Shown here: in pieces, positions 7,657 through 52,740 of the stretch
Layout of the letters: every line of letters begins with the position of its first letter
Numbering within the stretch: the first letter of the stretch is position 1
From: Nakazawaea peltata
Taxonomy: Eukaryota > Ascomycota > Pichiomycetes > Alaninales > Pachysolenaceae
NCBI GenBank assembly: GCA_001599355.1
Contig: BCGQ01000001.1
Location: 2,793,135 to 2,857,134 of the forward strand
Direction: 5' to 3'
DNA: 64,000 nt
The notes under the pieces: model-generated
The model's database searches: none
The model's input: the letters and a program-made list of their open reading frames with translations, nothing else
What the model was told of the DNA's origin: nothing
Program-made: the position numbers and the translations under genes

Positions 7657-9117
7657 ATGAACCAATCCGTGATTAGATTCATTGCCGTTTTCTTGACTTT
7701 GGTCACTTTTGGCCAAGCTGCTCCAGCTATTGTTACCAGATACCACACTGCTGAAGCTGAGACTGTTACTACTACCGAAATCACTGGTACTACTACTCTC
7801 ACTATGCCTTTAGTTGAGATTTTCATCTCTAATGGTGTTACTTACACTTTCACCATGACCACTACTGCTACTGGAACTTCTTCTGATGCTACTCAAACTG
7901 TTGTTTTCACCGATGGTACTAGTACCACTTTATCACCAGGTGAAGCTATTCCAACTGGTGTTGCCAAGGCTGCTACTACTACCTCGACCACTCCAGTAGC
8001 TGACACAACTACTGCTGCTGAGGACACTACTACCTCCACCACTCCTGTTGCCGATACCACCAGCCCAACTACTGTTGCTGATGCTACCACCACTTCTACC
8101 AGCAGTTCTAGTTCTTCAAGTGACTGGACTTCTACTACTGAAACCATCACTTTGACTACTACTATTACTTTGGATAACGGTAAGAAGACTACTTCTACTG
8201 GTACTACTACTGAGAAGACCACTACATCTAAATCTTCTTCTACTAGCACCACCAGTTCCACTACTTCTACCACTTCTACAAGTTCTACCAGCTCTTCTGG
8301 TTCTACCAGCTCTGCTTCCATTTCTACCCCTCCAACAGCTATTGTCTACAGTCCTTATCACAACGACGGAACTTGTAAGAATTCCAGTGTTGTCACCAGT
8401 GACTTAACCTTAATTGCTTCCAAGGGTATTTCTAGTGTTAGAATTTACGGTACCGACTGTGACTCTATCAATACCGTTGAACCAGCTGCTGTTGAATTAG
8501 GATTGAAGGTCAACCAAGGTTTCTGGATCGACTCTGATGGAGTTGATTCTATCGATGACTCTGTCGATGATTTGATCTCTTGGGCTCAAGAAAATACTTG
8601 GGATGTATTCACTTTCATCACTATCGGTAACGAAGCTATCCAATCTGGATACTGTACTGTTGATGAGTTGATTTCCAAGATTGCCTCTGTTAAGAGCAAG
8701 TTACAAGACGCTGGTTACCCAGGTTTAGTTACTACTGCTGAACCACCAGTTACCTTCGAAGACAATCCAACTTTGTGTACTGACTCAGCTATTGACTTTG
8801 TTGCCATCAATTCTCACTCTTACTTCGATGTCAACTCAGCTGCTTCTGACGCTGGTACCTTCGTTGCTGGACAAATTGAAATTGTCCAAGGTGTCTGTGG
8901 AAACTTGGATGTATATGTCAGTGAAACTGGTTACCCAAGTGCCGGTGACACCAACGGTAAGAACGTCCCATCGGTCGCCAATCAAGAGATTGCCATTAAA
9001 GCTCTTTTAGATGTTGTTGGTCAAAATATCACAATCTTGTCGACTTATAATGATTACTGGAAATCACCAGGAGAATATGGAATTGAACAATCCTTCGGTG
9101 TTATTCAATTATTCTAA
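7657..9117 (+). CDS. MP65: Secreted GH17 cell wall glucanase-like protein (SCW4/SCW10/MP65 family)
   Basis: A 486-residue secreted protein. Residues 1-21 are a signal peptide ending FGQAA. A long Thr/Ser-rich stalk (about 100-225) holds two copies of a [10 protein letters not shown]-type repeat and would be heavily O-mannosylated. The GH17 domain runs from [12 protein letters not shown] to the end. Both expected catalytic acids are present: E326 in the IGNEA motif (proton donor) and E423 in SETGYP (nucleophile). There is no hydrophobic C-terminal tail, so it is not GPI-anchored and is probably held in the wall non-covalently or by alkali-labile bonds, as for Scw4, Scw10 and Mp65. The family acts on beta-1,3-glucan in the wall. 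An antisense frame across the stalk is a by-product of the ACT/ACC repeats. Confidence 0.92.
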
Positions 9118-9542: not shown

Positions 9543-10691
9543 ATGACAACTAGACCAACTATTTCAGCCTTAATTCATAAGGAGAACAAAGATATTCCCC
9601 GGATAGAGAAACCCAGGCAAAAACCCGCCGATAGATTACTCCAAAATGAACGTAAAGGTCATCTTCTAGAGCGTCTCGATGAGGATATTCAAAATATCAA
9701 CTTCATGAAGAGTGAGCTCCGAAGACAACAAAGAGAGATCGAGAATAAGAAGAAAGAGGCCGAACTTCTAGAACTGCTCATTAATGCAGAGGAAGAGAAA
9801 CTGAAACTGCGGCAAAGCCAACAAAATAACGACGATAAGAACCAAGAAGAGGGTGATAAAGAGGAACCAGAATGGATGAAAACAACAGAGTCCCTGTTAT
9901 ATGCGAATATCGACACTAAAACCTACAGACAATATGAGTTAGCGAAAGAGAAGGTATCAAAATTCTATAAAGCTCAGCATGAGAAACAAACAGTACTGTA
10001 CAATATCCAAGCTCGGATTAATTTCAAGACCAAGATCAGAGACCGGATGACTATCTGGGAACTGTTGGAGAAATTGAACAGATTGATCGATGAGAGTGAC
10101 CCTGATACGGAGCTTTCACAAATCGACCATGCGATCCAAACAGCCGAGCTGATTCGTAACGATAACAAACCTCGATGGTTCCAACTTGTAGGATTAATCC
10201 ATGACCTCGGAAAGTTGTTATATTTCTATGATTCTCAGGGCCAATGGGATGTAGTAGGAGACACTTTCCCTGTGGGATGTCGATACTCCAAAAAGATCAT
10301 CTTCTATGACTATTTCAAGAAGAACCCAGACTACAAAAACCCATTATATAATTCCAAATATGGAGTGTACTCGAAGAACTGCGGTCTAGAGAACGTTTTG
10401 ATCTCTTGGGGTCATGACGAGTACTTCTTCTCGATTTGTCGTAACAGTTCCACTCTTCCCCCAGAAGCGTTGGCTATGATCCGGTACCATAGTTGTTACC
10501 CTTTGCACACGGAGAATGAGTACGAATACTTGATGAACGAGAAGGATAAAGAGATGATGAAACTGGTGCGAGCCTTTAATCCGTACGACTTGTATTCGAA
10601 GACAGACACCAAATACGACTTGGAAAAGTTGAAGCCCTACTACATGGAGCTCATAGATGAGTTCTTCCCCAATAAGATAGTGGATTTTTAA
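9543..10691 (+). CDS. Myo-inositol oxygenase with an N-terminal coiled-coil extension
   Basis: A 382-residue enzyme whose C-terminal two thirds (about 125-382) match myo-inositol oxygenase, which opens myo-inositol to D-glucuronate at a di-iron site. All six iron ligands of the family can be placed: H196, H220, D221, H291, H316 and D349. Motifs LIDESDPDT, GLIHDLGK, VGDTFPVGC, WGHDEY and FNPYDLYSK are present. Residues 1-120 are extra relative to the animal enzyme (about 285 residues) and form a charged coiled coil (about 38-92) plus an acidic linker. The residue after TIWE and the residue after TAE, usually Ala (or Gly in animals), are encoded by CTG (10062 and 10149), supporting CUG-Ala. It converges on the next gene with 5 bp between stop codons. 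The enzyme is patchy among yeasts and would allow use of inositol. Confidence 0.93.
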   Translation: MTTRPTISALIHKENKDIPRIEKPRQKPADRLLQNERKGHLLERLDEDIQNINFMKSELRRQQREIENKKKEAELLELLINAEEEKLKLRQSQQNNDDKNQEEGDKEEPEWMKTTESLLYANIDTKTYRQYELAKEKVSKFYKAQHEKQTVLYNIQARINFKTKIRDRMTIWELLEKLNRLIDESDPDTELSQIDHAIQTAELIRNDNKPRWFQLVGLIHDLGKLLYFYDSQGQWDVVGDTFPVGCRYSKKIIFYDYFKKNPDYKNPLYNSKYGVYSKNCGLENVLISWGHDEYFFSICRNSSTLPPEALAMIRYHSCYPLHTENEYEYLMNEKDKEMMKLVRAFNPYDLYSKTDTKYDLEKLKPYYMELIDEFFPNKIVDF

Positions 10692-11344: not shown

Positions 11345-11464
11345 CGCCGTTCTTCTCACGCCCAAGTCTTTGCCCCCATTTTTAATATGAAGCAAAATTT
11401 TTCCCCAAAAATTAACTATGGGAAGAGGAAGAGGAAGAGGGCAAGACGAACAGCGGTGGACGAT

Positions 11465-22122: not shown

Positions 22123-22923
22123 ATGTTTAACAGCAGAATACTACTGAGTTCGAGGAAATCTGTGCTCGGGATGAGCATGGGATCCAGAATCTCGCCACAT
22201 TTCACCAAGTTTTCTCCACTTTCACTGAGTAGAAACTTGTTCATCCAAACTCAGACCACCCCTAATGACTCCGCATTGAAGTTCTTACCTTCGATGCAAA
22301 TTTTACAACCAGAACAGACAATGGAGTTCCTTTCTGGAAGAGAGCTGTACAAGTCGCCATTGCTGTTGAAGCTTTTCTCGATCGACGGCATTAGATCGAT
22401 TATGTTAGGACCTGACTTCATCACCATTGAAAGACACCCAGAACCCGAGCATGAATGGAGTCTTTTGAAGCCTGAAATTTTTGCGATTTTGACCGAATTC
22501 TTGACTTCAGGTGAACCAATCATCAGAGAAGGATACGAAGAACCAGTTGACACCCTGATAAATGAAGATGATGACGAGATTGTGTCGATGATTAAAGAGT
22601 TGATCTTCACCAGAATCAGACCGGCCATTCAAGATGATGGTGGTGATATTGAGTTTGTTAAATTCGAGGAAGATTCAGGAACCGTATATCTTAGATTAAG
22701 AGGTGCTTGTAGATCATGCGACTCGTCGTCTATCACTTTGAAAAATGGTATCGAATCCATGTTAAAGCACTATATTGAAGAAGTGGAGAACGTTGAACAA
22801 ATTGAAGATTATGAAGAAGATGAAGATCTTGACCCTTTAGTCGAGGCTAAGAAAAGACGATTGGAGCAACAGGAAAGAGAGCTGCAAAAACTGTTGAATG
22901 ATGATGTCCCTCCTATTTTATGA
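22123..22923 (+). CDS. NFU1: Nfu1, mitochondrial iron-sulfur scaffold/carrier
   Basis: Mitochondrial matrix protein that delivers [4Fe-4S] clusters to lipoate synthase and respiratory enzymes. The frame opens at a TTG (22108); the first ATG, 22123, gives 266 residues. The N-terminus is rich in Ser and Arg with almost no acids (about 1-45), a good mitochondrial presequence. The Nfu N domain follows (about 46-135; FIQTQTTPNDSALKFLP, SPLLLKLFSIDGI). The NifU-like domain (about 150-225) holds the cluster-binding motif GACRSCDSS with C196 and C199. The C-terminal 40 residues are an acidic helix. It converges on the multi-RRM gene across a 460-bp gap. Confidence 0.95.
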   Translation: MFNSRILLSSRKSVLGMSMGSRISPHFTKFSPLSLSRNLFIQTQTTPNDSALKFLPSMQILQPEQTMEFLSGRELYKSPLLLKLFSIDGIRSIMLGPDFITIERHPEPEHEWSLLKPEIFAILTEFLTSGEPIIREGYEEPVDTLINEDDDEIVSMIKELIFTRIRPAIQDDGGDIEFVKFEEDSGTVYLRLRGACRSCDSSSITLKNGIESMLKHYIEEVENVEQIEDYEEDEDLDPLVEAKKRRLEQQERELQKLLNDDVPPIL

Positions 22924-26874: not shown

Positions 26875-27720
26875 ATGGCAGTTTTCGCCGTGATAGAAGG
26901 GAAGAGGTGGACGATGAGCAAGCGGCAAAGTGAGTTTTACTGTTGTTATCTACTCCGATCAACACCCAAACCAAAATCCTTCTACATTGGGTCGACACCG
27001 GACCCAATTCGGCGTTTACGTCAGCATAATGGAGAACTTACAGCTGGGCTGTACCGTACCAAGAGACAGGGGTTCAAGCCTTGGAAAATGGGGATGTGCG
27101 TGTATGGGTTCCCTTCCAAGAACAGTGCCTTGATGTTTGAGCATCTGTGGCAGCATCTGTATCAGACACGACATATCCCTGTTGAGAAAAGAGTATCTAA
27201 ATCGAGGACATCTGGTATCACCATGAGACATAAAATACTGAATGCTAAATTGCTATTGAATTGTTCCTTCTTCAATAAGCTCGATCTCAAAGTTCAGATA
27301 TTCGACCATGAGATTTATCAAGTATGGATGGAGAATAAATTTAAAATAACAATACCCTCAGATTTACATGTGGATTATAATGAAGCCACACCCGGAGATA
27401 TTAATTATGATCAGATATCAGAATTCTTAGGGAACTACAAAGCTCAACAAGAGCAGCTACTTGAACAAATCAAAGATACCATACTTAAGCTGCCACATTA
27501 CAGATGCTCTCACTGTGACAAAGAAATAGATCTCGATACGGAATTGTTTACAAATTGTTACCAATGTTGGGAACAACTAACCCACCTCAATTGCATGGCT
27601 TACACTCAAGAAGAGTTAGTGCCCACTATTGTCGAATGCACCAAATGTAACAAGCCCTTGAAATGGGCTCAGCTTCTGAGATTGGCAAGAACAACCCGAG
27701 GCTGGCTCGAGAAACGATAG
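26875..27720 (+). CDS. SLX1: Slx1, GIY-YIG structure-specific endonuclease subunit
   Basis: Catalytic subunit of Slx1-Slx4, which cuts branched DNA such as stalled forks in rDNA. The GIY-YIG domain begins FYCCYLLRS and SFYIGSTPDPIRRLRQHNG and contains the catalytic Arg/Glu block (RLRQHNG, FEHxWQH). The C-terminal zinc-binding RING/PHD-like domain has C-x2-C at CSHC, then CYQC, HLNC and CTKC. The first ATG gives 281 residues; an internal ATG at 26914 (MSKRQSEFYCCYLL) matches the family start better and would give 268. Two CTG codons sit where S. cerevisiae Slx1 has Ala: 27049 (before YRTK) and 27145 (FEH-A-WQH). A further CTG at 27157 faces Gly. Confidence 0.94.
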   Translation: MAVFAVIEGKRWTMSKRQSEFYCCYLLRSTPKPKSFYIGSTPDPIRRLRQHNGELTAGLYRTKRQGFKPWKMGMCVYGFPSKNSALMFEHLWQHLYQTRHIPVEKRVSKSRTSGITMRHKILNAKLLLNCSFFNKLDLKVQIFDHEIYQVWMENKFKITIPSDLHVDYNEATPGDINYDQISEFLGNYKAQQEQLLEQIKDTILKLPHYRCSHCDKEIDLDTELFTNCYQCWEQLTHLNCMAYTQEELVPTIVECTKCNKPLKWAQLLRLARTTRGWLEKR

Positions 27721-32171: not shown

Positions 32172-34202
32172 ATGAGTGAGATAAAGAGAAGACTCTCAGA
32201 AGACGCCGAGGGTGGCGTCGACAACAAAAGAAGAGCGCTCGAGTCGCTCAGCGAGGATGGGCCTTTGACTCAGGACGATGTCGTATACTTCCAGAAGGAG
32301 CTGATTTGGAGACAAATGAAGTCGTATCGTAAACAGTACGAATTGATTAACCTGCAGTTGGCCAGCCATAAGAAGGAGGCCGCTAAGGATCTGCAAAGGA
32401 TCGCGTTATTAGTCCTGTGGTATAAACAAGTGGTTCTGAGCTTCGATGTGGGTTCCACTGACGCTGTTAACGACAAGTTATTGTCTACTTTGGACAGTTT
32501 CGATGTAGAGGGTGATATTCTGGAGATCAGAGACTCATTTATCAAGGTATTATCGCTGATTAAGAGTGGTCTGAGTGCCGATCAACTGGCTGAGAAGATT
32601 GACCAATTGACCAAAGATCTTGCTACCATTACAGCTTCCAACAGAACCCTTGAGAAGGAGAGTAGTGTTTTGCAACAACAAGTGGATACTTTACAGCTGG
32701 AAATATTGGATATGAATCAAAAGTTGGAGAGATCTAACTCCAAGACCATACAAAGAGTGTTGAATTCTGCAGTAAAAGAGGAAGAACTGCCTGTTGTTCC
32801 AGCTGAGACAGAGATTAAACAAGAGAATGGTGATTCTGGAGATTCTGGTGTGAATAATGAGGAGTTTGAAAAGATGACTCTCCAGTTAAATGAATTACAA
32901 GACGTGAACAGCAACTTGACCAAACAAATTAATGAAGAGCTTGCTATAACCACCAACTTGAAGAAGGAGTTAATGAGTGTTACTTTGAGGTTGACTAATT
33001 TGGCGGAGGAAGATTTAATTAAGAGTACTCTGTATGTATCGTTGAAGCTGGAGAATGCTAGTTTGGCGGCCGAGACCAGTGATTTGAAGTTGAAACTGAA
33101 ACAATATTTCACCAAGATCACAGAGTTAGAAGCCGAGAGACAACAGTTCCAGAACTCCGTCACCAATGAGGCCTCCAAGGTGAAACTGGAAGCTCTTACC
33201 AGTTTAGAGAAACTGGAACAAGATTTAGTAAGAATTAGGACTGCGAGAGATGATTTGATGAGCAAAAATAGTGTATTGAAGAATGAAAAATCGTACAAAG
33301 AGGTGATCGAAGAGATGAAACAGTTGATTGATATTCAAAAGAAAAGAATTGAAGAGTTAACTCTGTCGAAAAAGAGCGTGGTAACCAGCAATGATAGTCT
33401 GAATCTCGATAAAGAGCAGTTGTTGGAACAAAACTCGCTCTTGGAGAACGAATTGAAAGAGGTGGAGATTGCATTCAAGGAAGCACATGAGTTGTCGGTC
33501 AAGAGATTAATAGAGGCCGCCGATACCGCTTCGTTGGTGAATAAATTGAACATTGAAAAGACCAAGGCTGATCAAAAGTATTTCTCAACTATGAGAGTGA
33601 ATGATTCATTGACACAGGAGAATAAAATATCCAAGATGACTATCCAGAAACAACAGGAGTTGATTAACTCGATGAAGGAGGTGGAAAAGAAGCTCGAAGT
33701 GAAGGTGGAGCTCTTGGATTTGAAGTTGAAGGACTTGAAATTCTTGGAGAACAACTTGGCCAATGAAAGCCAGCAATACAAAAAGAAGACAGTAGAGCTG
33801 CAGAAGCGCATCGAGAGTTTATTAGAGCATAACAATAGATTGAAGTCGATTTGTGAGCAGCTGACACTGGAGAAGGAGTCTGAAATTCATTTGAGGAAGC
33901 AAAAGGAAACCGAGAATGCCAGATTGGCCTCCAAATTGAAATCAGTGGAGCTGTTGAATGCCAAATATAAGAGCAACCTGGCCGGAACCCTTCTACAAGA
34001 GGACCAAGAGCTGATTAACACATTGCGTATGATGGTAAAATGCTCAGTTTGCTCCAAGAATTGGAAGGATACTCTGATCAAGAACTGTGGACATGTATTT
34101 TGCCATGACTGTGCTCATGAACGTCTTGCAGCTCGTTTGAGAAGATGTCCATCATGTAACAAACAGTTCAGTGCGAATGATTTGTTGAGTATTCATTTGT
34201 AA
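32172..34202 (+). CDS. BRE1: Bre1, E3 ubiquitin ligase for histone H2B
   Basis: A 676-residue nuclear E3 that, with the E2 Rad6, monoubiquitinates histone H2B in transcribed chromatin. The N-terminus has LTQDDVVYFQKE-IWRQM, the family start that contacts Rad6. Coiled coils fill about 45-615. The C-terminal RING finger begins at C624 (CSVC) and continues CGHVFC, C-x2-C and CPSC, ending with the typical DLLSIHL. Two CTG codons face Ala in S. cerevisiae Bre1: 32301 (QKE-A-IWRQ against QKEALFR) and 34074 (T-A-IKNCGHVFC against MAIKVCGHVFC). The start ATG is supported by these conserved first residues. BRE1 and HIR1 further right both act on chromatin, but they are not adjacent. Confidence 0.95.
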   Translation: MSEIKRRLSEDAEGGVDNKRRALESLSEDGPLTQDDVVYFQKELIWRQMKSYRKQYELINLQLASHKKEAAKDLQRIALLVLWYKQVVLSFDVGSTDAVNDKLLSTLDSFDVEGDILEIRDSFIKVLSLIKSGLSADQLAEKIDQLTKDLATITASNRTLEKESSVLQQQVDTLQLEILDMNQKLERSNSKTIQRVLNSAVKEEELPVVPAETEIKQENGDSGDSGVNNEEFEKMTLQLNELQDVNSNLTKQINEELAITTNLKKELMSVTLRLTNLAEEDLIKSTLYVSLKLENASLAAETSDLKLKLKQYFTKITELEAERQQFQNSVTNEASKVKLEALTSLEKLEQDLVRIRTARDDLMSKNSVLKNEKSYKEVIEEMKQLIDIQKKRIEELTLSKKSVVTSNDSLNLDKEQLLEQNSLLENELKEVEIAFKEAHELSVKRLIEAADTASLVNKLNIEKTKADQKYFSTMRVNDSLTQENKISKMTIQKQQELINSMKEVEKKLEVKVELLDLKLKDLKFLENNLANESQQYKKKTVELQKRIESLLEHNNRLKSICEQLTLEKESEIHLRKQKETENARLASKLKSVELLNAKYKSNLAGTLLQEDQELINTLRMMVKCSVCSKNWKDTLIKNCGHVFCHDCAHERLAARLRRCPSCNKQFSANDLLSIHL

Positions 34203-35280: not shown

Positions 35281-38200
35281 ATGTCTAGTACTATCGGTTG
35301 GACCGTTAAAGATTGGCGTCAATTCCATCTGGACTCTACTCCACAAGAGTCTTATGACAAGTTGACTGCCTTGTTGGCCCTGCAATCGACTGAAGATGCT
35401 GCCTGGATTTCGATCGCTTCCACCGAGGTCTTTGACCACCAATGGAAGATCTTGCAATCGAAACAGAACAAGCACCAGTTGCCATTGTACGGTGTCCCAA
35501 TTGCTGTCAAGGACAATATCGATGCCAAGGGCTTCGCTACCACCGCCGCATGCCCTTCCTTCGAATATTGGCCTGAATCCGATGCCACCACTGTCAAGTT
35601 ATTGAGAGATCTGGGTGCCATCGTCATTGGTAAGACCAATTTAGATCAATTTGCTACCGGTTTAGTCGGTGTCAGATCTCCATATGGTATTGCTAAGAAC
35701 TCTTTCTCCGATAAGCATGTTCCAGGTGGATCGTCCGCCGGTTCTGCCTCTCTTGTCGGAAGAGGTATTGTTCCTATCGCTTTGGGAACCGATACTGCCG
35801 GTTCCGGAAGAGTCCCAGCTGGTTTGAACAACTTAGTCGGTCTCAAACCTACTAAAGGTGTCTTCTCCTGTAAAGGTGTAGTGCCAGCTTGTAAATCTTT
35901 GGATTGTGTTTCTATCTTCTCGTTGACTTTGGCTGATCTGCAAGTCACTTTCGAGATCATGGCTCAACTGGATTTGGACCAAGATGAATATTCAAGAGAA
36001 ATGCCTTCTAACCCATTAGTCAAATTCTCCAAGACTCCAAAGGTCGCTATCCCATCCAATTTGAATTGGTATGGCGAGACCGAGAATCCAAAGCTTTACC
36101 AAAAGGCCGTCGAAGATATCAAGAAAACCGGTCTGGAACTTGTCACTATCAACTGCCAGCCATTGCTCGATTTGGCCAAGTGTCTTTATGAAGGTGCTTG
36201 GGTTTCCGAGAGAACCAGTGCTTGTAAAGATTTCTATACCACTAGCCCTCCAGAGAAGGATTTGGATAAGACTGTAACCTCCATTGTTAAAGGTGGAGAG
36301 AAATTCACTGCCGTAGAAGCCTTCAGATACGAGTACAAGAGACAAGGTATCTTGCAACAGGTTAAGAAATTACTTGAAGGTATCGATTTGCTTCTTGTTC
36401 CTACCTCTCCATTGACTCCAACTATCGAGGAAGTTCTCGCCGAGCCAGTTCTTGTCAACTCCAGACAAGGAGAATGGACTAACTTTGTTAACTTGGCTGA
36501 TATGGCCGCTTTGGCTATTCCAGCCGGTTTCAGATCCGACGGAATGCCTTTCGGTGTCACTTTACTCGCTGCCAAGTTCACCGACTATGCTTTATTGGAG
36601 ATGGCTAACAGATTCTTGAAGGTTGCCTTCCCTGAGAAGAGAACTTTGGGTGCTACTAAGGCTTTGGCTGGACTTGGAGACGAATTATCTCCAGCTATTC
36701 CAAAGCCAGACCTCTCTAAGTCCATTAAGTTGGCCGTTATAGGTGCTCATTTGAGTGGTATGCTGTTGAACTGGCAATTGGAGAAAGTCAATGCCACTTT
36801 CTTGGAAGCCACAAAGACCTCTAAAAACTATAGATTGTATGCCTTACCTGTGACCGGACCTGTTGCTAAGCCAGGTTTAAGAAGAGTCACCGACGCTTCT
36901 GCCGGTGAGCAAATCGAGTTGGAAGTTTACTCTGTTCCAATCGAGAATTTCGGTACTTTCATCGCCATGGTTCCTTCTCCATTGGGTATTGGATCCGTAG
37001 AATTGGAATCTGGAGAAATCGTCAAGTCCTTCATTTGTGAGGAATCCGGTTACACAGAGAGAGGCACTAAGGACATCACCAAATACGGTGGATGGAGAAG
37101 TTACATTGCTCTGCAACAGTCTGGCAAGAAGAAGAAGCCATTTGACACCGTCTTGGTCGCAAACAGAGGTGAAATTGCCGTTAGAATCATCAAGACTTTG
37201 AAGAAACTCGGTATCAAGTCTGTAGCTGTCTATTCTGACCCAGATAAGTATGCTGAACACTCTTTGATCGCCGACGTTGCCGTCCCATTGCACGGTACTT
37301 CTGCTCTGGAGACTTATTTGCAAATTGACAAGATCGTGAAAGCTTGTAAAGACACTGGAGCTCAAGCTGTAGTTCCAGGTTACGGTTTCCTCTCTGAAAA
37401 TGCCGACTTCAGTGACAGACTAGCTCAAGAAGGTATCGTTTTCGTAGGTCCTTCTGGAGATGCTATCAGAAAGTTAGGATTGAAGCATTCTGCTAGAGAA
37501 ATTGCTCAAAAGGCCGGTGTTCCATTGGTTCCAGGTTCCGATTTGATTGCTTCTGCTGCCGAGGCCAAGGAAATCGCTAGAAAATTGGAGTATCCTGTCA
37601 TGGTTAAATCTACTGCCGGTGGTGGTGGTATCGGATTGCAAAAAGTCGACTCCGAGGCCGATATTGAGAAGGTTTTCGAGACCGTTCAACATCAAGGTAA
37701 GGCCTACTTTGGAGATTCCGGTGTCTTCATGGAAAGATTCGTAGAAAACTCTAGACATGTAGAAATCCAAATGTTTGGTGATGGTTATGGTAAGGCTATT
37801 GCTTTAGGAGAAAGAGACTGTTCTTTACAAAGACGTAACCAAAAGATTATTGAAGAGACCCCAGCTCCTAACTTACCTGAGGCCACCAGACAACGTATGA
37901 GAAAGGCTGCCGAACAATTAGGTGCCTCTATGAACTATAAGTGTGCTGGTACTGTCGAGTTCATTTACGATGAGAAGCGTGACGAGTTCTACTTCTTGGA
38001 AGTCAATGCTCGTTTACAAGTCGAACATCCAATTACTGAGATGGTCACCGGTTTGGATTTGGTCGAGTGGATGCTTTACATTGCAGCCGACGATCCACCA
38101 GACTTTTCTCAAGAGATTAAGGTCACCGGAGCTTCTATGGAGGCCAGATTGTACGCCGAGAACCCTGTCAAGGATTTCATGCCTTCTCCAGGTCAATTGA

Positions 38201-40761
38201 CCGACGTCAAGTTCCCATCCTGGGCCAGAGTTGACACTTGGGTTAACAAAGGTACCGTAGTAAGTGCCGAGTACGACCCAACTTTAGCTAAAATTATTGT
38301 ACACGGCAAAGACAGAGCCGAGGCTTTGAGTAAATTGAGACAACTGTTGAACGAGACCGTCGTTTATGGTTGTATCACCAATGTAGACTATTTAAGATCG
38401 ATTGCTAACGCTCCTCTTTTCGAGAACGTTGAATTCCATACCAAGATTTTGGACACTTACGATTACAAGCCAAATGCTTTTGAGATCACTTCTCCTGGTG
38501 CTTACACCACCGTCCAAGACTACCCAGGTAGAGCTGGATTATGGAGAGTCGGTGTTCCACCATCTGGTCCTATGGATGACTATGCTTTCAGATTGGCCAA
38601 TAGAATTGTAGGTAACCACCACAAGGCCCCAGCCATTGAGATCACTTTGAATGGTCCTTCTATTTTGTTCCATCACGAGACCGTCATTGCCGTTACTGGT
38701 GGTGAAGTTCCTATCACCATCAACGGTAAACTGCTGGCTATGTGGGAACCAATTGAGGTCAAACGTGGTGACAAATTGGCTGTTGGTAAGTTGTCCAGTG
38801 GTTGTAGATCGTATTTGTCCATTAGAGGAGGTATCGATGTAACCGAATACTTGGGATCTCGTGCTACTTTTGCACTTGGAAACCTTGGTGGTTACAACGG
38901 TAGAGTCTTGAAGTTGGGAGATGTCTTGTTCTTGGGTCAACCAAACCTTCCTTCTTGTACTTTACCTTCGCCAGTTTCTGCTCCAGCCGCTACTCCAAAG
39001 TCTTTGATTCCTTCTTATCCTCTGAAGGAATGGGAAGTTGGAGTCACTTGTGGACCTCACGGATCGCCAGATTTCTTCAAGCCAGAGTATGTTGGAACTT
39101 TCTTCAGTGAACAATGGAAGGTTCACTACAATTCTAACAGATTTGGTGTCAGATTAATCGGTCCTAAACCACAATGGGCTAGACCAGACGGTGGAGAAGC
39201 CGGTTTACATCCTTCTAATGCTCACGATTACGTTTACTCCCTTGGTGCCATCAATTTCACCGGTGATGATCCAGTTATTTTGACTTGTGATGGTCCTTCT
39301 TTGGGTGGTTTTGTTTGTCATGCTGTCGTAGCTCAGCTGGAGATGTGGAAGATCGGTCAAGTCAAGCCTGGAGATTTGATCAAATTCGTCCCAATCTCTT
39401 ACGATTCTGCTAGAGATTTGAGAAAGCTTCAAGATTCTAACATTGAGTCATTCTCTGGTGAAATTGCCAAGACTTTGAAGCTGTTGGCTGAGCCAGAAAA
39501 CCCAATTTTGAGTACTTTGAAGACCAGTGATTCTGCTCCAATCGTCACTTACAGACAAGCTGGTGACCGTTACATCTTGGTCGAGTACGGAGAAAATGTC
39601 ATGGACTTGAACTTGTCTTACAGAGTTCACAAATTGCAAGAAGTTGTTGCTTCTCATAAGACTATTGGTATTGTCGAGATGTCTCAAGGTGTTAGATCGG
39701 TCTTGATCGAATTCGATGGTTACAAAACTACTCAACAAGAATTACTTGAGACTTTGATTGCCTACGAGAAGGATATTCCTGCTATTAACAAATGGAAGGT
39801 TCCTTCTAGAGTCATCAGATTGCCTATGGCTTTCGAAGACAAGAAGACTTTGGACTCTGTCCAACGTTACCAAGAGACCATCAGATCCAATGCCCCATGG
39901 TTGCCTAACAATGTTGATTTCATTGCCAGTGTTAACGGTATTGAAAGATCTGTCGTTCAAGATATGTTATACAGTGCTAGATTCCTTGTCTTGGGTCTTG
40001 GAGATGTGTTCCTTGGAGCTCCTTGTGCTGTCCCATTAGACCCACGTCATAGATTCCTCGGAACTAAGTATAACCCATCGAGAACCTTTACTCCTAACGG
40101 TACCGTTGGTATCGGTGGTATGTACATGTGTATTTACACTATGGAGAGTCCAGGTGGATACCAATTGGTTGGTAGAACCATTCCAATTTGGGACAAGTTG
40201 GCCTTGGGTGCTCATTCCAAGAAATTCAACGGCAACAACCCATGGTTGTTGACTCCATTTGACCAAGTTGAATTCTACCCAGTATCCGAACTGGAGTTGG
40301 ATGTCTTCTGCGAACAATCGCAACATGGTCACTTTGATGTCGAGATGGTCGATTCCGTATTTGACCATGCCAAATACTTGGAATGGATCCAAGAAAACAG
40401 TCTGTCGATCAGAGAATTCCAACAAAACCAAGGAGGTGACAAGTTGGAAGAGTTCAACAGATTGATCCAAATTCTGAACGAAGAATTGGAACAAAGTGGT
40501 GGTCCTCAATTGAGTGAGGATGAGAAATTACCAGAGGATCTGGAAACCGTCTACTCAGAGTATTCTGGTAGATTCTGGAAACCATTGGTACAAGTAGGAG
40601 ATGTAGTTACTGAAGGTCAAGGTTTAGTTGTTGTGGAGGCAATGAAGACCGAGATGGTGGTTGCTGCACCTTCCGCCGGTAAAGTTTACAAGATTGTACA
40701 CAAGAACGGTGATATGGTAGAAGCCGGAGACATGGTGGTTGTCTTGGAGCCTACCAAATAA
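35281..40761 (+). CDS. DUR1,2: Urea amidolyase (urea carboxylase plus allophanate hydrolase)
   Basis: A cytosolic biotin enzyme of 1826 residues that breaks urea into ammonium and CO2 in two steps using ATP. Domains in order: allophanate hydrolase of the amidase family (about 1-480) with the Lys-Ser-Ser triad K77, S151 and S175; its C-terminal part (to about 610); biotin carboxylase (about 615-1070; RGEIAVRIIKTLKKLG, GGGGIGLQ, EVNARLQVEHPITE); urea carboxyltransferase domains (about 1080-1720); and a biotinyl domain with EAMKTEM, biotin on K1789. Length and order match S. cerevisiae Dur1,2 (1835). Alignment from memory to that protein gives many CTG/Ala matches: codons 111, 676, 1022, 1353, 1732 and 1754 among others. 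Codons are strongly biased, suggesting high induced expression. GATA sites and CGG palindromes upstream fit nitrogen control. Confidence 0.97.
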   Translation: MSSTIGWTVKDWRQFHLDSTPQESYDKLTALLALQSTEDAAWISIASTEVFDHQWKILQSKQNKHQLPLYGVPIAVKDNIDAKGFATTAACPSFEYWPESDATTVKLLRDLGAIVIGKTNLDQFATGLVGVRSPYGIAKNSFSDKHVPGGSSAGSASLVGRGIVPIALGTDTAGSGRVPAGLNNLVGLKPTKGVFSCKGVVPACKSLDCVSIFSLTLADLQVTFEIMAQLDLDQDEYSREMPSNPLVKFSKTPKVAIPSNLNWYGETENPKLYQKAVEDIKKTGLELVTINCQPLLDLAKCLYEGAWVSERTSACKDFYTTSPPEKDLDKTVTSIVKGGEKFTAVEAFRYEYKRQGILQQVKKLLEGIDLLLVPTSPLTPTIEEVLAEPVLVNSRQGEWTNFVNLADMAALAIPAGFRSDGMPFGVTLLAAKFTDYALLEMANRFLKVAFPEKRTLGATKALAGLGDELSPAIPKPDLSKSIKLAVIGAHLSGMLLNWQLEKVNATFLEATKTSKNYRLYALPVTGPVAKPGLRRVTDASAGEQIELEVYSVPIENFGTFIAMVPSPLGIGSVELESGEIVKSFICEESGYTERGTKDITKYGGWRSYIALQQSGKKKKPFDTVLVANRGEIAVRIIKTLKKLGIKSVAVYSDPDKYAEHSLIADVAVPLHGTSALETYLQIDKIVKACKDTGAQAVVPGYGFLSENADFSDRLAQEGIVFVGPSGDAIRKLGLKHSAREIAQKAGVPLVPGSDLIASAAEAKEIARKLEYPVMVKSTAGGGGIGLQKVDSEADIEKVFETVQHQGKAYFGDSGVFMERFVENSRHVEIQMFGDGYGKAIALGERDCSLQRRNQKIIEETPAPNLPEATRQRMRKAAEQLGASMNYKCAGTVEFIYDEKRDEFYFLEVNARLQVEHPITEMVTGLDLVEWMLYIAADDPPDFSQEIKVTGASMEARLYAENPVKDFMPSPGQLTDVKFPSWARVDTWVNKGTVVSAEYDPTLAKIIVHGKDRAEALSKLRQLLNETVVYGCITNVDYLRSIANAPLFENVEFHTKILDTYDYKPNAFEITSPGAYTTVQDYPGRAGLWRVGVPPSGPMDDYAFRLANRIVGNHHKAPAIEITLNGPSILFHHETVIAVTGGEVPITINGKLLAMWEPIEVKRGDKLAVGKLSSGCRSYLSIRGGIDVTEYLGSRATFALGNLGGYNGRVLKLGDVLFLGQPNLPSCTLPSPVSAPAATPKSLIPSYPLKEWEVGVTCGPHGSPDFFKPEYVGTFFSEQWKVHYNSNRFGVRLIGPKPQWARPDGGEAGLHPSNAHDYVYSLGAINFTGDDPVILTCDGPSLGGFVCHAVVAQLEMWKIGQVKPGDLIKFVPISYDSARDLRKLQDSNIESFSGEIAKTLKLLAEPENPILSTLKTSDSAPIVTYRQAGDRYILVEYGENVMDLNLSYRVHKLQEVVASHKTIGIVEMSQGVRSVLIEFDGYKTTQQELLETLIAYEKDIPAINKWKVPSRVIRLPMAFEDKKTLDSVQRYQETIRSNAPWLPNNVDFIASVNGIERSVVQDMLYSARFLVLGLGDVFLGAPCAVPLDPRHRFLGTKYNPSRTFTPNGTVGIGGMYMCIYTMESPGGYQLVGRTIPIWDKLALGAHSKKFNGNNPWLLTPFDQVEFYPVSELELDVFCEQSQHGHFDVEMVDSVFDHAKYLEWIQENSLSIREFQQNQGGDKLEEFNRLIQILNEELEQSGGPQLSEDEKLPEDLETVYSEYSGRFWKPLVQVGDVVTEGQGLVVVEAMKTEMVVAAPSAGKVYKIVHKNGDMVEAGDMVVVLEPTK

Positions 40762-41297
40762 ATAGCTTCAATTTGAGAGTATTATTATGTGAATAATTCG
40801 TAGATTGCTCGCGCACAAGATCTCGTCAATGCACGATCTAAACCTTATTTAAGGGTTCCCTTCTAGGAAATTGTAAACAAACGGTCGCGAACAAAAAAGT
40901 AAACATCGCTGCGCGAGTGACGGGTTCGCTGGGTGGGTTTACAGTGGAGAGAAGAATGGCCGGCATGAGTAGAGAGCGCAGAAGATGTGAGTGACGAGAA
41001 TGATATGTAGGAGGGGCAAAAATTTGGGGGCAATGATGACCAGTTATGTGAGATTCGTCGTGTTTAGATCGGTTGCTACCTTCGATGATCCAGTTGCAGT
41101 TGCAGGTAGAATCCCCAAAATCGGGTATTATTATTTTGCCCATGTCAAAAATGCTGTAAAAATACCGAGACTGGGCTATTGTTTTGGTTTTTTTATTTTG
41201 ACCTCGATTTTATTTTTTTTTTGTTTGTTTTGATTTATAGCTAGAGATATTTATTGGTGATTCCGATAGATCACAAACCCAAATAGACCAGTTCAAT
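40762..41297. other. Intergenic region after DUR1,2
   Basis: About 540 bp: 3' flank of DUR1,2 and promoter of the next gene, with a T run near 41210. An antisense ATG frame of 101 codons (40838-41143) has no domain and poor codon bias. Nothing else seen. Confidence 0.45.
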
Positions 41298-42785
41298 ATG
41301 AGTGAAAATATCGTTGAGATAGTTGATGAAAATCAACCTCAACTGCTCAATACCAAGTTACAACCTACTCAATCCAAAGAAAAATCTCGTAGAAATGGGT
41401 TGTATTTGACTAACACTGAGTTGAATGAGTACAATTTGTCCAAGAACAAGTTCGGTGCTCAGTTATCTTTGAATGATATCATAAGTCCTGGAGCAGCCAA
41501 GTCAATTCCAGCCCCAAAGACTTTCTCGATTCATGAGGATAGTCAGATCAAGATCGCAGAAAATATCACTAAAGAAGATGAGTTTGCCTCCGAAGATGAG
41601 AATGAAGACGATTTGAGGTCGATTAATTCCAATTCCACTATTAATAAGAGATCGTCTATTCCATATGTGAACAACCGTTATTCATCTACATCATCGTACA
41701 ATGAGTCAAGTGTTAGGAATTCCAAGAGAATCTCCATCTTGAGTGTATCGTCATCAGACAGTGAAGATAATAGCAATAGTACTATGGAAGACGAGGATTT
41801 CAATAGATGTTTCTTCAATAATCCCCATGGGAGAACACGCAATATCACCACATTGTCCATCCATTCCAACAGTTCTAATGAGTCAGTCGATTTCACCACT
41901 TCTGGACTGCCTGGAATGGTTGGTTGTAGTACAGAGGGTAGTGCGAAGACATCTCCAGTTTCTCAAAAAGTGAAACCATTTGTCAAGCATGAGGTTGCAC
42001 AAGAAATAACTCCAAAGAAGTCCAAACCGAAACCTCAATCAAAGCATTCCCATCAATCCCAACAGAGACCTCCAACTGAGAAGAAGACCCAACTGCAACA
42101 AATGCGTGTCCCAAATAAACAGTACAATAATACCCCTCCACAATCCCAACTGTCGACTCAAAGACAAACTGCATTGAATAGCATCAAGAGATTCTCTCAA
42201 ATCTCTTCCAGTTCCAACAAGAGAAACTCTCTGATATCCACGGCATCGTCTTCCGACAGGTCTTCCAGGAGATTATCATTATTAGGAACATGGAGAGGGC
42301 AACAATCTGACCATCAGTCTCAACAACAGCAGCCTCTTAGAGCTCCTAAAGTAGCTCTGTTCCAACCTAAGCATTCTCCTTCATCTTCAGCTCATTCTAA
42401 AGATACTGATACCCCACCAATTCCACCACCACCTCCAAGCTCAGAAGCATTATCAAAAGTGAAAGAATCTTTGGAAGAGCAGCAAGAACCACAACAAGGT
42501 GGGTCCAAAATTCACAGATTAATGCATTCGGTGTCTATTAGATCCGGATTGTTCAAAATAAGAGAACAGAGCCTGCCAGAAGGAGGAGAGAAGAAGGTCC
42601 AACTTAAAAGATCATTCTTCTCCATCAGATCCGGGTTAAATAGATCGGCTTCTACATTAGATATTGGGTCAAATTTCGACCGCAGGAACATCTCCTTGCC
42701 AGTCCCACAAGAACTGACCCAGAAGAAGATAGATAACAAGTTAAAGAACTCGTCGTCAATCTACTCATTAGCAAACAGAGTTTAA
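41298..42785 (+). CDS. Disordered Ser-rich protein of unknown function
   Basis: A 495-residue protein I do not recognise. It starts at a clear ATG (MSENIVEIVDENQPQ). The most protein-like block is near the start: RNGLYLTNTELNEYNLSKNK, with LSLNDIISPG soon after. The rest is low complexity: Ser-rich and acidic (about 95-170), Gln/Pro/Lys-rich (about 230-290), a PPIPPPPP run near 375, and a basic C-terminal part. There a short motif, SIRSGL, occurs twice about 40 residues apart (SVSIRSGLFK and FFSIRSGLNR). Many RxxS and SP sites suggest a phosphoregulated adaptor, for example at the cell cortex, but that is a guess. No membrane segment or enzyme domain is visible. It ends 53 bp from convergent GET1. 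Confidence 0.78.
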   Translation: MSENIVEIVDENQPQLLNTKLQPTQSKEKSRRNGLYLTNTELNEYNLSKNKFGAQLSLNDIISPGAAKSIPAPKTFSIHEDSQIKIAENITKEDEFASEDENEDDLRSINSNSTINKRSSIPYVNNRYSSTSSYNESSVRNSKRISILSVSSSDSEDNSNSTMEDEDFNRCFFNNPHGRTRNITTLSIHSNSSNESVDFTTSGLPGMVGCSTEGSAKTSPVSQKVKPFVKHEVAQEITPKKSKPKPQSKHSHQSQQRPPTEKKTQLQQMRVPNKQYNNTPPQSQLSTQRQTALNSIKRFSQISSSSNKRNSLISTASSSDRSSRRLSLLGTWRGQQSDHQSQQQQPLRAPKVALFQPKHSPSSSAHSKDTDTPPIPPPPPSSEALSKVKESLEEQQEPQQGGSKIHRLMHSVSIRSGLFKIREQSLPEGGEKKVQLKRSFFSIRSGLNRSASTLDIGSNFDRRNISLPVPQELTQKKIDNKLKNSSSIYSLANRV

Positions 42786-42838
42786 TAGTTTTTATATTAG
42801 TATTATCTATACATAAGATGTTGTAAATATACATTATT

Positions 42839-43438
42839 TCACTTAGATTTCTTGGACTCTGTAGGATCCAGGGCCAGAGCAGTAGTCTCCTCCAGCTTTG
42901 GTGAGAAGAACAAGTACTTGATAACCTCAGTGATAGCTCCAAATACCAGGTTAATGCTGAATAACCATACTGTAATACCAATAGAGTTTGGTGGGGCACT
43001 TGGGAACCTCAAAAACCACACAACATATGACGGTAAGATGTTCAACGGCAAGAAATAGACCGGTGTAGACCTGTAATACAATGATATGATGATAATTGGC
43101 AACTTAAACACCACATAGAACACCGACTTGAAGGTGCCGTTGAACAGCACTTTCTGAGACTCGACCTGGGCGGTCAAAGTCTCAATTTCTTTCTTTAATT
43201 TGTCCAATCTACGGTTCAACTTGGTCCATTTGGCATATTCATCCTGTGCACTCACTCCCTGTTGCTCTTTATAAGTTTCATACTGCTGTTTCTTCATCAG
43301 AGCCAACTTTGATAAGCTCTCTGACCGCGACACTCTCATATAGAGGGCCCACAACACAGTAATGATGACATCTTCTCCGACAATTTTGATCAAATTCTGC
43401 ACCAAACAGATGCTCAAAGTCAATACAAGTAAATTCAT
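42839..43438 (-). CDS. GET1: Get1, ER receptor subunit for tail-anchored proteins
   Basis: With Get2 it forms the ER membrane insertase that receives tail-anchored proteins from Get3. The frame continues upstream to a TTG at 43567, but the ATG at 43438 (MNLLVLTLSICLVQ) starts exactly at the first membrane segment, as in the family, and gives 199 residues. Next come a cytosolic coiled coil (about 45-100) containing SAQDEYAKWTKLNRRLDKLKKEI, which is nearly the S. cerevisiae Get1 sequence and contacts Get3, and then membrane segments at about 105-125 and 160-185. The C-terminus ends in a short Lys-rich tail. It shares a 242-bp divergent promoter with CKB1. Confidence 0.94.
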   Translation of the reverse strand: MNLLVLTLSICLVQNLIKIVGEDVIITVLWALYMRVSRSESLSKLALMKKQQYETYKEQQGVSAQDEYAKWTKLNRRLDKLKKEIETLTAQVESQKVLFNGTFKSVFYVVFKLPIIIISLYYRSTPVYFLPLNILPSYVVWFLRFPSAPPNSIGITVWLFSINLVFGAITEVIKYLFFSPKLEETTALALDPTESKKSK

Positions 43439-43680
43439 CCTCAACAACAAGACAATCACCCAGTTGACCCAACCTGAAGTCGTCCCTTCAATCTTCGTAG
43501 TGACACTGTGACACTTTGGTGACACTGACCCGCACACTTGGACCTGCCCCCAACATCGTAACACCAACTGCCCAAAGGAGAAAATTTTTTTCCCTCATTA
43601 AAATGAGCCAGCGGCGGTCCTGAAGAGTCCCGATAGATAAGGGATTGGAGAAGAGCAGCGGAGGAGTTAATTTATCGAAT

Positions 43681-44520
43681 ATGAGTGAGGATATGTATGA
43701 GGGAGTGTCTGAGGAAGAAGAGGTTGATTCATGGATTTCGAATTTCTGTTCCATGTTTGGTCATGATTACTTTGTAGAGGTGTCTCAAGACTTCATTGAA
43801 GACGATTTTAATTTGACCGGGTTGAGCTCTATTGTGCCGTTCTACCGGGATGCATTGGACATGATATTGGATTTCGAGCCTGAGAAACCTATCAACTTGA
43901 ATAATTTACCATTGATCGAGCATAGCGCTGGATTATTGTACGGGTTAATCCATTCTAGATACATCTTAACAAGGCAGGGTTTAGAACTGATGCTGGAGAA
44001 GTTTGAGAAGAAGAAATTCGGAGTATGTTCGAGATATTACTGTGAAGGTATGCATTTGATTCCAATAAGTAGATATGATCAACCGGGAATAGAGACTGTA
44101 AGGTTGTATTGTCCTTGCTGTTGTGACATATATTTACCGAATTCGTCTAGATATTTGAATATTGATGGGGCGTTCTTCGGTACTAGTTTTGTCGGGTTAT
44201 TCATTAAAATGTACCCGGAAATCGAGAAACAATGTGACCAGAGAACAAAGGAGTTGTTTGAGTTGAAATTGTTTGGATTCAAGTTACATAAAACCTCGCT
44301 GGCGGGACCACGCATGCAATGGCTCAGGCAGAAGCCTAAGACATTGGAAGAAATGAAGGAGTTCGAGGCTTGTAAGTTAGGCATCCCAACTGAGGATGAC
44401 AACGATGATGATCTTCCCTCGGATATCGAAGATGACGAAATGAACTCACCACATGACAGTGATGAGCATATGCTGACTCCTAGTAATGATGATAGTCTGA
44501 TGAGCATCGCTGCTCCATAA
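43681..44520 (+). CDS. CKB1: Casein kinase 2 regulatory beta subunit
   Basis: Regulatory subunit that dimerises and holds the CK2 tetramer together. The frame begins at a TTG (43645); the ATG at 43681 gives MSEDMYEGVSEEEE and 279 residues, almost equal to S. cerevisiae Ckb1 (278). Conserved features: WISNFCSMFGHDYFVEV, IEDDFNLTGL, the zinc site (C-x4-C in CSRYYC, then C-x2-C in LYCPCC), and YLNIDGAFFGTSF. GPRMQWLRQ supports Ckb1 rather than Ckb2. The tail is acidic. The best CUG evidence lies here: GLE-CTG-M-CTG-EKF at 43987 and 43993 faces GLQAMAEKF in S. cerevisiae, two Ala in three positions. Confidence 0.94.
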   Translation: MSEDMYEGVSEEEEVDSWISNFCSMFGHDYFVEVSQDFIEDDFNLTGLSSIVPFYRDALDMILDFEPEKPINLNNLPLIEHSAGLLYGLIHSRYILTRQGLELMLEKFEKKKFGVCSRYYCEGMHLIPISRYDQPGIETVRLYCPCCCDIYLPNSSRYLNIDGAFFGTSFVGLFIKMYPEIEKQCDQRTKELFELKLFGFKLHKTSLAGPRMQWLRQKPKTLEEMKEFEACKLGIPTEDDNDDDLPSDIEDDEMNSPHDSDEHMLTPSNDDSLMSIAAP

Positions 44521-47118: not shown

Positions 47119-48021
47119 CTATTTGTGTCCTTTGAAGGCCAGTTTCTCCTTTTCAAACTCATTCAAGAAATTGTAGAAAGCTCCACTGGAGCTTTTGAAA
47201 TAATATTGATTGTTCTTCAAATATTGAGACACCTTGAATACCAGATCTTCAACGGGGTCGAAATATCCTGCATTAGCTAGACTTAAAGCTGCTGTTGAAT
47301 GGAGGTCGGCCAGATCCATCACATTGGATTCAGGAGCATCGAGGTCTTCAGTTCTTAATCTATTCAATTCTTCCTTCTCATTATCGATCTCTTCTTGAAT
47401 TTTACGTTCATGTGAAGCTATTCCATTACGGGCTTTAAACCGATACACAAATCCTTTGGAGGGCCCCTTTTCTATCTCCTGATCTGTCAATCCATACTCG
47501 TCTTTGTATTCTTTCAGTACCAGTTTCCAAATGTTTGAAATCAATGCCTCATTCACAACCTCACTACGCAGTAGACAATCTCGTACTATAAGTTCCAATT
47601 TCTCGACAATTGCCGGGTATTTGAATTGTAACTTCATTCTTTTGGATAATAATTGAGAACGACCTCCAAATTGATCGAATTGGTTGTTCGATCTATCGAT
47701 ATCAGTCAGAGAATGAGCACCAACAGAGGCAGCAGCTGCGGCCGCGGCCGCCAGAACATCACTGACATCACCATCTGTTTCTCCATTGTCCGCCAGTATC
47801 ATTCGAAGGCTCTTCTCCTTCGATTTCCAATCACATACCGTACTCACACTGATCTTGAATGTACATCCAGTCGAAATGAAATGCTTAACCGCCTGTGATA
47901 TCGAGCAATTATGCTGATTGATATAGTCTAATACGAAAAGTTTTTGTTGTAAGGAAGCCCTTTGGGTGATGGTGCCGTTATGGTCCAGACATATTTTTCT
48001 TAATGGGGTTGAACCGGCCAT
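47119..48021 (-). CDS. CENP-B-type helix-turn-helix DNA-binding protein without transposase core
   Basis: A 300-residue protein with two DNA-binding units in the order seen in pogo/Tigger transposases and CENP-B. The first (about 20-75; QQKLFVLDYINQHNCSISQAVKHF...STVCDWKSKEK) is a psq/Tc5-type helix-turn-helix. The second (about 130-205; KYPAIVEKLELIV...LISNIWKLVLKEY...FVYRFKARNGI) fits the CENP-B HTH, which ends in a WL/YRF-K-R-x-GI motif. An Ala run (about 90-97) lies between them. No DDE nuclease domain follows; the last 95 residues are helical and end KEKLAFKGHK. It is most likely a domesticated DNA-binding protein. Relatives in other yeasts include transcription factors such as Pdc2 and centromere or ARS binding proteins in fission yeast, but I cannot assign a specific function. 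Confidence 0.8.
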   Translation of the reverse strand: MAGSTPLRKICLDHNGTITQRASLQQKLFVLDYINQHNCSISQAVKHFISTGCTFKISVSTVCDWKSKEKSLRMILADNGETDGDVSDVLAAAAAAAASVGAHSLTDIDRSNNQFDQFGGRSQLLSKRMKLQFKYPAIVEKLELIVRDCLLRSEVVNEALISNIWKLVLKEYKDEYGLTDQEIEKGPSKGFVYRFKARNGIASHERKIQEEIDNEKEELNRLRTEDLDAPESNVMDLADLHSTAALSLANAGYFDPVEDLVFKVSQYLKNNQYYFKSSSGAFYNFLNEFEKEKLAFKGHK

Positions 48022-51516: not shown

Positions 51517-52740
51517 ATGTCGGGAGATCCAAAGAGCAAGGCAGATGGCGCTGAAGCGCCATTCGGTGAATTGTACAAGGAAGAAGAAGAGACAGGAGGC
51601 AAAATCATGACTATGGGAGAGAATGGTGAGATGTTGGAATACACTGGGCCAAGTGTGGACGAGATAGAGGAGAAAGAACCTGAGTCTTTGGATTTAAATA
51701 TGAAAGATTCCGGACGTAAAGTGTGGTTAGTCAAGTTACCAAAGAGATTAGCCGACAGATGGCGTGATATGTCCAAGATTGAAGGCAAAGAGTTGGGTAA
51801 ATTGAGGATTAAAAATGGTAACGGCTCAGACGTGAAACTTTTACTCGATCAAATTGAGGGAGTGACAGATGGATTACCTTCACAATATAAAATCATGATG
51901 AACAAGAAAGTGATAGAGAATGAGTATATATTTACAGAGACGAACTTGAAGAACTTTATAGTGGATAGAGTTGAGAATACACCAGGGGATATGAATAGTG
52001 CAAGACCAACGGCGAGCTCTAATCAGCCTTCGGCAGCTCAGCTGGCCGCCACCCTGGCTGCAAACCTGAGAGCTGAAGAAAGAAGAAGAAGATTGAAAAG
52101 ATTCAGAGAAAGGAAATACCAGGATGGTCAACAAACTACTAATAAACCAAGATATATCCCATTTGTTAAGACGATTCCAAAGAAGACTTCATTAGTGGGA
52201 ACAGTTTTCCATGAGTGTCAAGTGTTACCATCGATGACCGATAAAAACTATATTAAGCAATTGAAGAAGGACTTGAAACCAAAACCTAGACAAGCAGCTA
52301 CTTTATTAAGTGATCCAGTTGGTTTAATCCAAAGTAATACCGGTCCTTCGATCACTAAAGGTAACACTTCTCAGTTCTTGAGACAAGATAAACATAAGGC
52401 CAAGTCTGATGGTAGAGCCACTAGAATGCCTCAAAAGGACTTACTTGACTTGTTATTCCGTTTATTCGACGAATATGACTACTGGACAATGAAAGGTTTG
52501 AGAGAAAGAACTAAACAACCAGAGACCTACTTGAAAGAGAGTTTGGAGAAAGTGGCAGTATTAATTAAAAGAGGTCCATACCTGTTGAAGTATCTGCTTA
52601 AGCCAGAGTATAAGACATTAAGAGACCAAGAGAAGGCTAAACTGGCCAGTGCCAATAATGGTAATGTTCCAGACACCAATAATAACCAAGATGATCACGA
52701 ATCCGATATGGATGACCTTGAAATGGAAGACGTTGCTTAG
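51517..52740 (+). CDS. TFG2: Tfg2, beta subunit of TFIIF
   Basis: RAP30-type subunit of the RNA polymerase II initiation factor TFIIF. The frame begins at a TTG (51472); the ATG at 51517 gives MSGDPKSKAD and 407 residues. The N-terminal dimerisation domain has KVWLVKLPKRLADRWRDM, and the family winged-helix domain is at about 305-370 (RMPQKDLLDLLFRLFDEYDYWTMKGLRERTKQPETYLKE). The middle has basic RRRRLKRFRERKYQ and IPFVKTIPKKTSLVGTVFHECQ. The C-terminus is acidic. The segment before the basic run, with three CTG codons (first at 52042), reads AAQAAATAAANA under the Ala code, a helix-forming Ala stretch. Confidence 0.95.
   Translation: MSGDPKSKADGAEAPFGELYKEEEETGGKIMTMGENGEMLEYTGPSVDEIEEKEPESLDLNMKDSGRKVWLVKLPKRLADRWRDMSKIEGKELGKLRIKNGNGSDVKLLLDQIEGVTDGLPSQYKIMMNKKVIENEYIFTETNLKNFIVDRVENTPGDMNSARPTASSNQPSAAQLAATLAANLRAEERRRRLKRFRERKYQDGQQTTNKPRYIPFVKTIPKKTSLVGTVFHECQVLPSMTDKNYIKQLKKDLKPKPRQAATLLSDPVGLIQSNTGPSITKGNTSQFLRQDKHKAKSDGRATRMPQKDLLDLLFRLFDEYDYWTMKGLRERTKQPETYLKESLEKVAVLIKRGPYLLKYLLKPEYKTLRDQEKAKLASANNGNVPDTNNNQDDHESDMDDLEMEDVA

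Follow-up and report, generated by a model that had tools for sequence, protein, structure and literature searches.

The 64-kb window analysed here (the whole stretch of 64,000 nucleotides, positions 2,793,135 to 2,857,134 of contig BCGQ01000001.1) carries protein-coding genes in which the codon CTG behaves as an alanine codon. When all alignable CTG codons, rather than picked sites, are compared with homologues of known structure, alanine is the best of the 20 residues, with serine lower by 32.6 bits and leucine by 151.7 bits (90 gap-free rows), and Pfam profile scores agree; the reading of CUG as alanine, advanced in an initial annotation of this DNA, is thereby borne out. The host is very probably a budding yeast with nuclear CUG translated as alanine (translation table 26), most likely of the Alaninales/Pachysolenaceae (Pachysolen, Nakazawaea or Peterozyma), a lineage that we infer from the code alone. 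The CUG-Ala code is genuine and has already been described.

The window has a guanine-plus-cytosine (GC) content of 40.7%, and its DNA is budding-yeast-like. The genes considered are its 29 open reading frames (ORFs) of at least 180 codons, which together hold 15,083 codons and end in TAA (17), TAG (7) or TGA (5). CTG occurs 270 times in them (17.9 per 1000 codons); counted with the alanine codons it makes up 26.5% of these, more than GCC, GCA or GCG and less than GCT only.

Comparison with solved homologues

To keep the comparison unbiased, each CTG was rendered as X before the window proteins were matched to chains of the Protein Data Bank. With X scoring zero, realignment of 23 homologue pieces for 12 proteins covered 5,584 codon sites and yielded 7,036 codon-residue pairs. 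An amino acid was assigned to each codon from the residues facing it, with the remaining codons as yardstick and near-identical chains used once. Coverage extends to 85 of the 270 CTG codons; another 158 lie in 17 ORFs without a solved-structure alignment, and 27 more lie outside the aligned parts. The likelihoods use 90 rows at 74 sites; a row was dropped from them when a gap lay two columns away or less, but was retained in the 85-site counts. The searches give molecule names, and the source organisms of the chains are mostly presumed; the urea amidolyase chain KLLA0E08119p, for example, is presumably that of Kluyveromyces lactis.

The procedure recovers the standard meaning of 58 of the 60 other sense codons when only CTG is blanked, and of 57 when each codon is blanked in turn and realigned, the misses in this control being thinly sampled (AGC, n = 20; CGA, n = 11; CGC, n = 6). 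CTT, CTC and CTA come out as leucine both with and without blanking, and no codon other than CTG is clearly changed. Four pieces were left out of the first alignment set: the second half of ATE1 chain 7wfx (three CTG rows, by eye Val, Gly and Pro), a longer PRP18 chain (three rows, by eye Ala, Pro and Pro), a weak second PRP9 piece (two rows, by eye Ile and Asp) and the CAF1B relative of HIR1. With these restored (further WD40 relatives of HIR1 were kept out of the enlarged set too), alanine again ranks first over 98 rows, with serine at -34.8 and leucine at -167.2 bits, and 23 of 88 CTG sites face Ala, 7 Ser and 7 Leu. The per-site, matched-conservation, bootstrap, Pfam and DUR1,2 homologue tests described below rest on the first set; TRK1, with no alignment among those listed, enters the Pfam test only.

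The initial annotation had proposed a tabulation of the residue opposite each CTG. Carried out on the 12 window proteins with one homologue per site, it finds 24 of the 85 sites opposite Ala, 7 opposite Ser and 8 opposite Leu. The alanine count looks low; CTG sites, however, fall where conservation is poor, with a mean local identity of 0.375 versus 0.523 for the GCN alanine codons. GCN codons at matched conservation would be expected to face 27.1 Ala, 8.6 Ser and 6.2 Leu, and in these counts CTG is indistinguishable from them. Serine codons at matched local identity predict 24.9 Ser in place of the 7 seen, and the other leucine codons predict 38.9 Leu in place of 8; none of 5000 shuffles was that low in either comparison. 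Conversely, 4.8 Ala would be expected if CTG were leucine-like and 9.2 if it were serine-like, and 0 of 5000 shuffles reached 24 under either assumption. Where alignment is better the pattern is sharper: at a local identity of at least 0.4, 14 of 34 CTG sites are opposite Ala and one each opposite Ser and Leu, with alanine winning 1924 of 2000 gene bootstraps, while at a local identity of at least 0.6 none of 14 sites faces Ser and none faces Leu.

Pfam profiles were also searched with all 29 ORFs, translated in turn by tables 26, 12 and 1. For three of them (10697-11344 on the minus strand, 41298-42785 on the plus strand and 47119-48021 on the minus strand) no family matched at E 0.001, whichever code was used. 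The scores were summed over 45 families, one per region, with one chosen where several overlap and the best 25 listed for HIR1. Alanine leads serine by 39.3 bits, with 25 families in favour, 11 opposed and 9 tied, and leucine by 78.6 bits, with 30, 8 and 7 families, respectively; none of 5000 family bootstraps fell at or below zero against either residue. Omitted from the sum were, among others, zf-met in PRP9 (22.4 with Ala, unlisted with Ser, 24.2 with Leu), SH3_9 (26.6, 22.8 and 20.5, respectively) and two families listed only with Leu.

CTG codons of the urea amidolyase gene

The CTG codons of DUR1,2 are set out in the Table with those of other window genes. The gene was aligned with bacterial homologues as well, namely one partial relative from a bacterial genome scan and four better plasmid loci; of the 66 rows opposite its CTG codons in these homologues, 25 carry Ala, 4 Ser and 3 Leu. 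The initial annotation had held that none of the DUR1,2 sites examined faces a conserved Leu or Ser, which is a fair description: codons 17 and 34 are opposite Ser in the K. lactis chain, but the sole bacterial homologue aligned at codon 17 and two of the three at codon 34 have Ala. Codon 495 would represent a proline-to-alanine change if CUG is alanine.

Table. Positions within the 64-kb window of genes and CTG codons, with the residues that homologues carry opposite CTG.
Feature	Position	Strand	CTG codons and facing residues
GH17-like ORF	7657..9117	+	0 CTG in 486 codons vs 38 GCN Ala codons
Myo-inositol oxygenase (MIOX) ORF	9543..10691	+	10062 opposite Ala; 10149 Gly; 9996 Asp; 10563 Trp
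NFU1 ORF	22123..22923	+	22345, 22363 opposite Ala
SLX1 ORF	26875..27720	+	27049, 27145, 27238 opposite Ala; 27157 Gly; 27490 Thr
BRE1 ORF	32172..34202	+	25 CTG; 32301, 34074 opposite Ala, in better aligned regions
DUR1,2 (urea amidolyase) ORF	35281..40761	+	19 CTG; full-length match to solved urea amidolyase, 2916.8 bits
DUR1,2 codon 111	35611..35613	+	Ala in 5/5 homologues, yeast and bacterial
DUR1,2 codon 495	36763..36765	+	Pro in 5/5 homologues; CCG one base away
DUR1,2 codon 676	37306..37308	+	Ala in 3/6 homologues (rest Leu, Gly, Ser)
DUR1,2 codon 1022	38344..38346	+	Ala in 6/6 homologues, yeast and bacterial
DUR1,2 codon 1353	39337..39339	+	Ala in 4/5 homologues
DUR1,2 codon 1732	40474..40476	+	Ala in yeast chain only (1/5)
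DUR1,2 codon 1754	40540..40542	+	Ala in yeast chain only (1/5)
CKB1 ORF	43681..44520	+	43987 opposite Gln, 43993 opposite Leu; uninformative
TFG2 ORF	51517..52740	+	52582 opposite Ala; 52594 Thr

Relation to known CUG codes

The original paper on CUG-Ala is reportedly that of Muhlhausen in 2016. Krassowski et al. (2018, PMC5951914) assign the code to a single clade of Nakazawaea, Peterozyma and Pachysolen, in which CUG is decoded by a transfer RNA (tRNA) that descends from a tRNA-Ala with a mutated anticodon. The three genera belong to the Pachysolenaceae in the order Alaninales (NCBI); this order is named among the three in which CTG has changed its meaning (PMC11540330). The statement in the initial annotation that CUG-Ala is confined to Pachysolen and its relatives matches PMC5951914 and PMC8645108; the exception reported in a 2017 review, Ascoidea rubescens (PMC5499181), is contradicted by mass spectra, which give serine (PMC5951914).

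The window resembles the table 26 genera in that CTG behaves as alanine and no other codon is clearly changed, and also in that its CTG codons avoid well-conserved positions, CUG being described as relatively rare and located in poorly aligning regions in the reassigned clades (PMC5951914). In CUG-Ser1 yeasts (table 12, the Candida albicans clade) the same codon has moved away from leucine, but the residue here is alanine, not serine, and CUG accounts for 0.42% of codons in C. albicans (PMC8645108) versus 1.79% here. The CUG-Ser2 group (Ascoidea and Saccharomycopsis) represents another reassignment of this codon, in which conserved genes contain few CUG and the homology signals conflict (PMC5951914), whereas an alanine signal is found here. 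Leucine-box codons have likewise been captured by alanine in Ashbya mitochondria, but that case involves an organelle and the codons CUU and CUA (PMC3874161), and CUU, CUC and CUA all remain leucine codons in the window.

As suggested by the papers on the clade, CUG would be read here by an alanine tRNA whose anticodon has mutated to CAG; alanyl-tRNA synthetase disregards the anticodon of its substrates, which makes such a capture possible. In the 64-kb window ARAGORN found no tRNA genes, Rfam at gathering scores gave no matches, and a relaxed cmscan returned four sub-threshold matches with no tRNA among these.

Weighing of alternative readings

A number of observations weigh against the assignment of alanine. 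Gene bootstraps over all sites (11 genes) return Ala in 1543 of 2000 cases, with Ser in 418, Lys in 37 and Met in 2, and Ala is the single best residue in just four of the 11 genes (DUR1,2, NFU1, SLX1 and TFG2), with Ser scoring above it in ATE1, BRE1, ECT1 and HIR1 and Leu in PRP9 and CKB1. In the per-site test the preference for Ala over Ser comes mostly from DUR1,2, a gene that accounts for 16.6 of a net 16.9 bits. This total is below that of matched GCN samples (5-95%: 28.2-63.0); the 131.9 bits by which Ala exceeds Leu also lie near the lower edge of the matched GCN range (130.6-189.0). The Pfam sum depends less on DUR1,2 and still favours Ala over Ser. Two-residue fits improve when Ala is joined by Ser (0.35), Thr (0.28), Pro (0.10) or Gly (0.10). 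Ala and Ser readings can, moreover, be confused, since Pachysolen itself was grouped with the CUG-Ser yeasts in a study of few proteins that preceded knowledge of the alanine code (PMC4986446).

Some of the sites on which the alanine reading was originally based also turned out otherwise. All 14 sites that the initial annotation gave by position or codon number are indeed in-frame CTG, and DUR1,2 codons 220 and 285, which we take to be the two further sites it placed in the amidase half, are in-frame CTG opposite Ala. Thirteen of these 16 sites face Ala (DUR1,2 codons 111, 220, 285, 676, 1022, 1353, 1732 and 1754; BRE1 32301 and 34074; SLX1 27049 and 27145; MIOX 10062). The other three lend it no support: both mammalian chains have Gly opposite MIOX 10149, and the solved CK2-beta chain has Gln at CKB1 43987 and Leu at 43993. 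None of the six CK2-beta chains listed is named as yeast CKB1, the protein whose Saccharomyces cerevisiae sequence the initial annotation had set against this pair; a search that covered a single bacterial genome along with 14 control genomes found no member of the CK2-beta family.

Serine, the meaning of CUG in C. albicans and the Ser1 clade (table 12), comes second in each of the pooled 20-way tests and outscores alanine in four of 11 genes and 11 of 45 Pfam families, yet we consider it highly improbable: the seven sites opposite Ser fall far short of the number that matched serine codons predict, real serine codons at matched sites give Ala-minus-Ser values of -61.1 to -21.0 bits versus +16.9 for CTG, and the Pfam sum is lower by the 39.3 bits given above. 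Leucine, the standard meaning, can draw on the eight sites opposite Leu and on the eight of 45 Pfam families that score higher with it, but its deficit at matched sites and of 151.7 bits in the 20-way comparison leaves it with a next to negligible probability. A mixed code, in which CUG is mainly alanine with a minor share read as leucine or serine to yield statistical proteins, is unlikely, if the least unlikely of these alternatives. The two-residue fits allow a leucine share of 0-0.23 and place that of serine at 0.15-0.57, and for Pachysolen tannophilus about 10% Leu by de novo sequencing is disputed by more than 99% Ala by database search (PMC8645108). However, the fit barely gains from Leu (0.08), Ser opposite CTG is not raised, and neither residue is clearly in excess relative to GCN; the fits are therefore read as a sign that CTG occupies permissive positions, and since Thr, Pro and Gly improve them as well, such positions rather than serine decoding would account for the Ser share.

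It is also conceivable that CUG-Ala arose independently here, outside the Pachysolenaceae, in a lineage that has made CUG a main alanine codon, second to GCT, even at alanines common to bacteria; we regard both the separate origin and such a lineage as very unlikely. CUG-Ala sits in one clade (PMC5951914), and the predictor of Shulgina and Eddy was tested on 462 yeast species, CUG-Ala being among the clades, in a screen whose title confirms the known distribution (PMC8629427). P. tannophilus has a lower GC content than the 42.3% of Nakazawaea ambrosiae. The window value lies near that of N. ambrosiae (PMC10106607, Table 2), which lends weak support to placement within the family. By this measure, a source in Nakazawaea or Peterozyma is somewhat likelier than one in Pachysolen.

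Distribution of CTG among alanine codons

The CTG share of alanine codons drops as site conservation rises, running 34%, 34%, 21% and 10% (p=4.8e-6). This gradient was considered as a sign that CTG is mutationally isolated from GCN, an idea that was rejected: the share of GCA+GCG also drops with conservation (0.31 to 0.12), as does that of AGY more weakly (0.32 to 0.19). Selection for accurate codons would thus also account for the CTG gradient. Also set aside was an origin of CTG codons from one-step neighbours (Val, Pro, Met, Leu, Gln and Arg), which make up 20 of 61 non-Ala residues opposite CTG versus 40 of 164 opposite GCN, too little to support it. The GH17-like ORF is the sole CTG-free ORF of the 29 (chance 4.9e-6); it is Ser/Thr-rich, and its GH17 match lies under the Pfam cut-off (23 vs 28.2 bits). 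It is tempting to guess that this gene is highly expressed. CTA is scarce as well, at 35 of 1287 leucine codons in the 29 ORFs; CUA is under-represented in CUG-Ser clades according to an analysis from which five CUG-Ala genomes were left out (PMC6701816).

Neighbouring genes

The MIOX ORF matches PF05153 with 395 bits and has a charged N-terminal extension of about 135 residues beyond the domain match; to our knowledge, S. cerevisiae has no myo-inositol oxygenase. In the PRP9 ORF as listed, 11240-11387 (+) overlaps the 5' end of the divergent ORF 10697-11344 (-), and, since Prp9 homology begins near residue 80, translation more likely starts at an in-frame ATG at position 11387. The match of a TauD-family dioxygenase ORF (13708-14490, +) begins at profile position 32 of 267, and the N-terminal part absent from this ORF is perhaps encoded by an upstream exon.

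Implications

Translation of this genome with the standard code or table 12 would be wrong at about 1.8% of codons; annotation should therefore use table 26. The window also provides a data point on the extent to which a reassigned codon can join its new family: CTG has become a quarter of all alanine codons and reaches alanines that bacterial homologues have too, but it continues to avoid conserved positions and is missing from one gene of 486 codons.
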